Assembly (NCBI RefSeq): GCF_014696615.1
Contig: NZ_JACJQJ010000088.1
Location: 1-33,224 of the forward strand
DNA: 33,224 nt
Reading direction: 5' to 3'
DNA from: Nostoc linckia FACHB-104
GTDB lineage: Bacteria > Cyanobacteriota > Cyanobacteriia > Cyanobacteriales > Nostocaceae
Shown: piece after piece, positions 1,309-1,482 of the stretch
Layout: every line of letters begins with the position of its first letter
How positions within the stretch are numbered: the first letter of the stretch is position 1
The notes under the pieces: model-generated
The model's database searches: none
Told to the model about the DNA's origin: nothing
What the model saw: the letters and a program-made list of their open reading frames with translations, nothing else
Made by a program: the position numbers and the translations under genes

Positions 1309-1482
1309 TTATGCTATGACCACTATGTAAAAACCACAGGAGTCAGCTTTAGGGTCGCAACCTACAATCATGATGCGTTGACCCATTTCTGCCATAGCTG
1401 CTAGGGTGTTTTGAGAGGTGGTAGATTTACCGATACCGCCTTTACCGTAGAAAGCTATCTGTCTGATGTTTTCGTCAGTCAT
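1309..1482 (-). pseudogene. nifH: nifH 5' part: nitrogenase iron protein, interrupted after codon 48
   Basis: This encodes the N-terminal 48 residues of dinitrogenase reductase, the ATP-driven electron donor to the MoFe protein. The P-loop GKGGIGKS spans residues 13-20, and GCDPKADS (41-48) precedes the point where NifH normally continues Thr-Arg-Leu. Here the frame instead reads nine foreign residues (CGFYIVVIA) and stops at 1309. Homology therefore covers 1339-1482, and the rest is junction sequence. A full NifH has about 295 residues with two [4Fe-4S] cysteine ligands, all of which are missing here. The ATG at 1482 has an AGGAAA ribosome site about 10 bases upstream. It follows glbN on the same strand. 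The clean break in an undecayed sequence argues for an excisable element rather than old decay, but a dead gene copy is not excluded. Confidence 0.85.

Follow-up and report, generated by a model that had tools for sequence, protein, structure and literature searches.

A very probably excisable element in nifH1 of Nostoc linckia FACHB-104 carries phycoerythrin genes

Hilton et al. (2016; PMC4874684) catalogued 101 interruption elements, among them six nifH variants. The variant most similar to the locus described here lies at nifH position 150 ± 7 bp, has serine recombinases and is given for three strains (Anabaena sp. 90, A. circinalis AWQC310F and S. hofmanni PCC 7110). The same paper reports that 70 recombinase genes oppose the interrupted gene and that all but one lie near the element end, and its introduction poses the benefit of these elements to the host, if there is any, as an open question. 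Wang et al. (2012; PMC3542288) described two elements, of 80 and 5.9 kb, in nifH of Anabaena sp. 90. Restoration of a gene by excision during differentiation, as would occur here, is also the mode of the SP-beta prophage in spsM of Bacillus subtilis (PMC4191935) and of skin in sigK (PMC5025042), which unlike the nifH element are prophages or prophage-like and belong to sporulating bacteria. From the sequence comparisons reported below, we consider it very likely that an excisable element, about 31.7 kb long without the single repeat copy inside it, splits nifH1 of N. linckia FACHB-104. This element would be removed by its own XisF-type recombinase, and its cargo includes genes for phycoerythrin, a red light-harvesting pigment.

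The window, by which we mean the whole analysed stretch of 33,224 nucleotides, is contig C169 of the source genome (G000), a draft of 9.39 Mb in 181 contigs. NifH homology runs on the minus strand from an ATG at 1482 to 1339, a length of 144 nt or 48 codons, and ends in GAC TCC, where TCC encodes Ser48 and is the last nifH codon before unrelated DNA begins. Within the interval 1309-1482 that had been singled out beforehand, bases 1338-1309 are inserted DNA and lie outside nifH. The features of this part of the window are:

1..238, unstranded: terminal portion of a multicopy repeat at the contig break; the repeat sits within the element and is probably an insertion sequence (copy number, common terminus)
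239..1338, unstranded: left end of the nifH interruption element, whose remainder is C136:89-30732 (collinear with G122 and G133)
505..1245, plus strand: SDR-family oxidoreductase, a gene of the element that is also in the G133 element (family profile match)
1315..1338, unstranded: left-end arm on the element side, which forms an imperfect inverted repeat with the right-end arm on C136 (16 of 24 positions match; 0.011% of shuffles)
1339..1340, unstranded: inferred crossover dinucleotide CC at the left end, bases 2-3 of the Ser48 codon (17-genome comparison of ends and centring of the inverted repeat)
1339..1482, minus strand: 5' part of nifH1, codons 1-48 (PF00142 match and join to the 3' part)

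A search of the genome with the PF00142 profile gave ten matches, five of them above the cut-off. These are the window fragment (3.1e-21, profile positions 1-61, the match containing one stop), a second fragment at C136:30730-31416 (profile positions 42-270), complete NifH matches on C123, where it belongs to a separate complete nif cluster, and on C42, an 11.4-kb contig where it stands away from nif genes, and one match at C24 that we take for a putative ChlL-type relative. The fragment on C136 is the nifH 3' part: it opens with ACC CGT TTG ATG, has its first base at C136:30733, is preceded by a divergent 455-aa serine recombinase and is followed by nifD downstream. The original prediction of a nifH split after codon 48 is borne out, since homology ends at 1339 and a scripted join of this last 5' base to C136:30733, the first 3' base, yields a 296-aa NifH without a stop; the nifH half is also undecayed, as had been claimed, in that both fragments keep intact frames when joined. 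No joined nifH1 was found assembled among the PF00142 matches of the genome. Beyond the left edge of the window the 3' part had been expected together with a recombinase, and the two were indeed found together; the 3' part sits, however, on a different contig, because the assembly breaks at the repeat. Second complete nifH genes, which were to count against the split if the interrupted copy had no 3' half, are present on C123 and C42, yet that half exists as well.

Among the eight same-genus genomes, our own counted, nifU-nifS DNA was matched in all eight, and nifH1 is intact in four (G003, G088, G108 and G056) and split in the remaining four (G000, G122, G133 and G141). In all four intact genomes the uninterrupted site reads GACTCCACCCGT, which is exactly the product of the scripted join. 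Two of the genomes with a split gene carry both halves in the same orientation on one contig, an arrangement whose absence would have spoken against the prediction, and which in the source genome is spread over two contigs. G122 (matching Calothrix membranacea FACHB-236, NZ_JACJPX010000006.1) has the whole element on one contig of 179,712 bp with both nifH halves, the recombinase, cpeB and pebB, and its element is collinear with C136 plus the window apart from insertions and deletions. G133 (matching Nostoc carneum NIES-2107, AP018180.1) also has both halves and the recombinase on one contig, and is without the repeat at the point in question: C136:89 and window:239, which flank the repeat here, map to the adjoining bases 35287 and 35286 of the fetched stretch. 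From these adjoining flanks and the collinearity with G122, the size of the element is therefore about 31.7 kb plus one repeat copy here; it is about 27.6 kb in G122 and about 35.4 kb in G133.

Window 1-237, the repeat that ends the contig, has 11 copies in the genome at 100% identity (rounded by the tool, the window's own copy counted), every one of them at a contig end, with one further copy at 88% and one 65-base match. The first 88 bases of C136 finish in the same 21-base terminal sequence, and the copy number, this common end and a TA at the insertion point indicate that the repeat is probably an insertion sequence. A transposase that had been read beside the nifH half was not confirmed, the segment being the end of this repeat, and none was seen among the three open frames of at least 80 aa in the 88% copy (read without a family-library search). 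The SDR gene reported from the foreign sequence is real (505-1245).

The element recombinase (C136:29323-30690, 455 aa) is a serine enzyme of the XisF family that diverges from the nifH 3' part; it scores 553.6 bits against NF041201 (XisF, cut-off 375), has PF00239 and PF07508 domains above cut-off and keeps a frame without a stop. It lies inside the element beside one end, with its start about 40 bp from the core at the right end, and the same holds in G122, where the recombinase is 98% identical, and in G133. Relatives at 1e-60 or better were found in 51 of 192 family genomes. A tyrosine recombinase of the XisA type was ruled out as the enzyme of the element, which is of the XisF serine type. 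With its break after nt 144, within 150 ± 7, the element appears to belong with the published nifH 150 variant, to judge by its site, the class of its enzyme and its layout, sharing with it the gene, the place and a serine recombinase at the far end opposed to the gene; it differs in its phycoerythrin and other light-harvesting cargo, phycoerythrin being absent from the main text of that paper (PMC4874684). Anabaena sp. 90 is similar in that its first nifH part measures 153 bp (144 nt here) and its recombinase lies on the opposite strand, and unlike the source genome it has two nifH elements, the 80-kb one holding a prophage remnant (PMC3542288).

To place the crossover, we compared both element ends in 17 of 20 genomes (19 and the source genome), leaving aside G085, whose 5' part was not found, and G071 and G115, which show no pair of halves at the nifH site. 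At the third base of the Ser48 codon the two ends agree in 17/17 genomes, with the base itself varying between genomes (7 C, 9 T, 1 A), as against an average of 7.7 agreements for shuffled end pairs; because the genomes are related, the 17 agreements do not represent 17 independent events. The second base is C in all 17, and the first differs between the ends in 6 of them. When the element-side arms are compared as an inverted repeat centred on this dinucleotide, they match at a mean of 14.6 of 24 positions, compared with 5.5-8.2 for ten other offsets; in the source genome 16/24 match, a value equalled by 0.011% of shuffles, and the gene-side arms match at 6/24 there and at 6 to 11 across the 17. 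Such a combination, with a palindromic site on the element, an asymmetric one in the gene and a core of 2 bp, is expected of a large serine recombinase. The short core repeat and the xis-type recombinase that had been anticipated are thus both present, the former as an exact direct repeat of only 2 bp here (CC; ACnCC with one mismatch) that is longer in relatives, and the latter as an XisF-type serine enzyme. The 17-genome comparison points to a two-base recombination core for nifH elements of this class. In G007 (L110, L111) and G037 (L114), the recombinase stands at the 5' end of the element in nifH orientation, and the right end repeats the KADS codons, which looks like an insertion in the reverse direction.

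Further along the window are other genes of the same nif cluster, with a second interruption:

1862..4682, minus strand: genes presumed from their sequences to encode a small globin-like protein, nifU and nifS, upstream in the same nif cluster (open reading frames)
4747..4809, minus strand: 3' end of fdxN, the second interrupted gene of the cluster (20/20 residues equal to the end of the intact FdxN of G122)
4839..6401, plus strand: XisF, beside the fdxN break and not beside nifH (NF041201, 519.8 bits, cut-off 375)

The segment 4747-6401, with the interrupted fdxN 3' end and its XisF, is the right end of an fdxN element, and fdxN identity with the intact G122 gene begins at TATTC. Neither the window nor two further XisF regions (C111, C1) yielded the fdxN 5' part. 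Since it adjoins the fdxN break, this XisF was ruled out as the nifH recombinase. The nifD gene is broken too (C136 stretch L010, 11631-13013), with GGATTACTCCG at the break, so that, with nifH, fdxN and nifD all broken, the cluster has at least three interruptions. We take the breaks at TATTC in fdxN and at GGATTACTCCG in nifD to be the canonical element sites of Anabaena 7120. Compared with the fdxN element and its XisF that are known from Anabaena sp. PCC 7120, the nifH element has a recombinase of the same family (NF041201) and differs in the gene and the core, and it is the window XisF at 4839-6401 that occupies the fdxN site here.

A second nif cluster on C123 (L013 7839-17555) contains what we read as complete nifS, nifU, nifH, nifD and nifK, together with an 899-aa frame that looks to us like a fused nifE-nifN. 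Given this separate intact cluster, the strain might fix nitrogen without restoring nifH1. On that reading a mobile island would have disrupted nifH1 for good, leaving it non-functional, and nitrogen fixation would rely on the C123 cluster. The intact nif cluster with its own nifH agrees with such a loss, as does the fact that excision was not seen, but we regard it as very improbable: neither nifH half is decayed, the recombinase frame is free of stops, the same split with matched core bases is found in 17 genomes, and fdxN and nifD of this cluster are broken at what we take to be canonical element sites. A decayed nifH gene is ruled out by the intact halves and the shared split. The 3' half, the recombinase and the common core instead argue for programmed excision, which had been proposed as the best explanation.

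Under programmed excision, the recombinase would exchange strands at the CC of the Ser48 codon in a differentiating heterocyst, joining nifH1 in frame and releasing a circle. With about 40 bp between the crossover and the start of the recombinase gene, the promoter of this gene may extend into the nifH 3' part; excision would then cut the promoter off, favouring a one-way switch. The junction of an excised circle was not found in the three assemblies searched, and excision, its timing and any benefit are what we infer from sequence, not what we observed.

What is new here is the phycoerythrin and other light-harvesting cargo on a nifH interruption element; among the matches listed from the open-access literature, there was no report of phycoerythrin genes on an excision element. 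On C136, the cargo includes CpeB, CpeA, CpeY, PebA and PebB above NCBIfam cut-offs; two CpeS-like proteins, a CpeT-like protein, a linker, a phycobilisome-family protein and the orange carotenoid protein with its recovery protein above Pfam cut-offs; and, below NCBIfam cut-offs, a further pair of linkers and three HEAT-repeat proteins that resemble lyases or NblB, which amounts to about 17 light-harvesting genes. A histidine kinase, a response regulator, a glutathione transferase, methyltransferases and others complete the element. The only CpeB match (1e-70) and the only above-cut-off PebB match of the genome lie on the element, as they do in G122, cpeB and pebB being the cargo genes covered by this check for second copies. 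That the phycoerythrin genes only appear to stand beside the nifH recombinase through a fault of assembly, as the split of the element over two contigs of a 181-contig draft could lead one to think, is scarcely credible, given that about 1.1 kb separates the recombinase from cpeB on the single contig C136 and that in the separately assembled G122 a single contig, collinear with the source, carries the halves and the recombinase as well as cpeB and pebB.

Since excision would delete the element, a nitrogen-fixing cell that repairs nifH1 is expected to lose the phycoerythrin genes from its chromosome: the heterocyst chromosome would be rid of cpeBA, pebAB, linkers and lyases, and vegetative cells would keep them. 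Heterocysts shut down and degrade phycobilisomes in any case. We think it fairly probable that the element is excisable and that its phycoerythrin cargo is accidental, its loss from heterocysts having no consequence, because the cargo differs between close relatives. The nifH element of G133 carries Csc2, Cas6, Cas4, Cas1 and a Cas3-like helicase (L076 855-10401), which from Csc2 we read as type I-D CRISPR-Cas, so that in this relative excision would take a defence system out of the chromosomes of heterocysts as well; the G133 element has in common with the source element the recombinase, GST, methyltransferase and SDR regions. The pigment loci of G133 are elsewhere, outside its nifH element (1979-2015 kb): cpeBA is accompanied by two lyase genes at 955-959 kb, the linkers are at 933-937 kb, and a pebAB-OCP block is at about 1722-1735 kb. 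Accident is also in keeping with the highly variable gene content of the elements in Hilton et al. (PMC4874684) and with the occurrence of an XisF-like match within 30 kb of cpeB in only two (G000 and G122) of the 22 family genomes that have both, a count made by eye on the best eight or fewer candidates per genome in 192 of 217 family genomes, in which drafts may hide further cases.

The element may instead be a working cell-type switch for pigment, in which scattered phycoerythrin genes were gathered in and the cut that activates nifH1 at the same time rids the heterocyst genome of phycoerythrin synthesis; this we consider doubtful. Genes that are spread over two or more loci in each of G133, G088 and G108 stand together in the source element, and cpeB and pebB are on the element in both G000 and G122; both facts argue weakly against accident, and neither is proof of selection. 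A flank upstream of cpeB that is common to G133 and G088 suggests that the location of the phycoerythrin genes outside the element is the older one, and in the nifU-nifS tree the branching among G000, G003, G122, G133 and G088 is without resolution. A clustered ancestor is a possible alternative to gathering into the element (compare G037 and G095, outside the genus, with cpeB and pebB within about 10 kb). As no cpeB or pebB was detected in the genome outside this cargo, the question of host benefit can be put to the test in single cells, by tracking phycoerythrin together with nifH1. If the element is a pigment switch, it would be a bacterial counterpart of soma-specific gene elimination, and excision in a vegetative line could strip phycoerythrin in one step, as maybe in G003. 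That genome (L148), a close relative, is 97.5% identical in nifU-nifS and has an intact nifH1, with cpeB and pebB not detected, and may represent a lineage in which the element and the pigment disappeared at the same time.

Beyond the nif genes, the window contains two neighbouring giant frames of 4429 and 2085 aa (7664-20953 and 21073-27330) whose N-terminal parts are similar, the larger of them being strongly repetitive.
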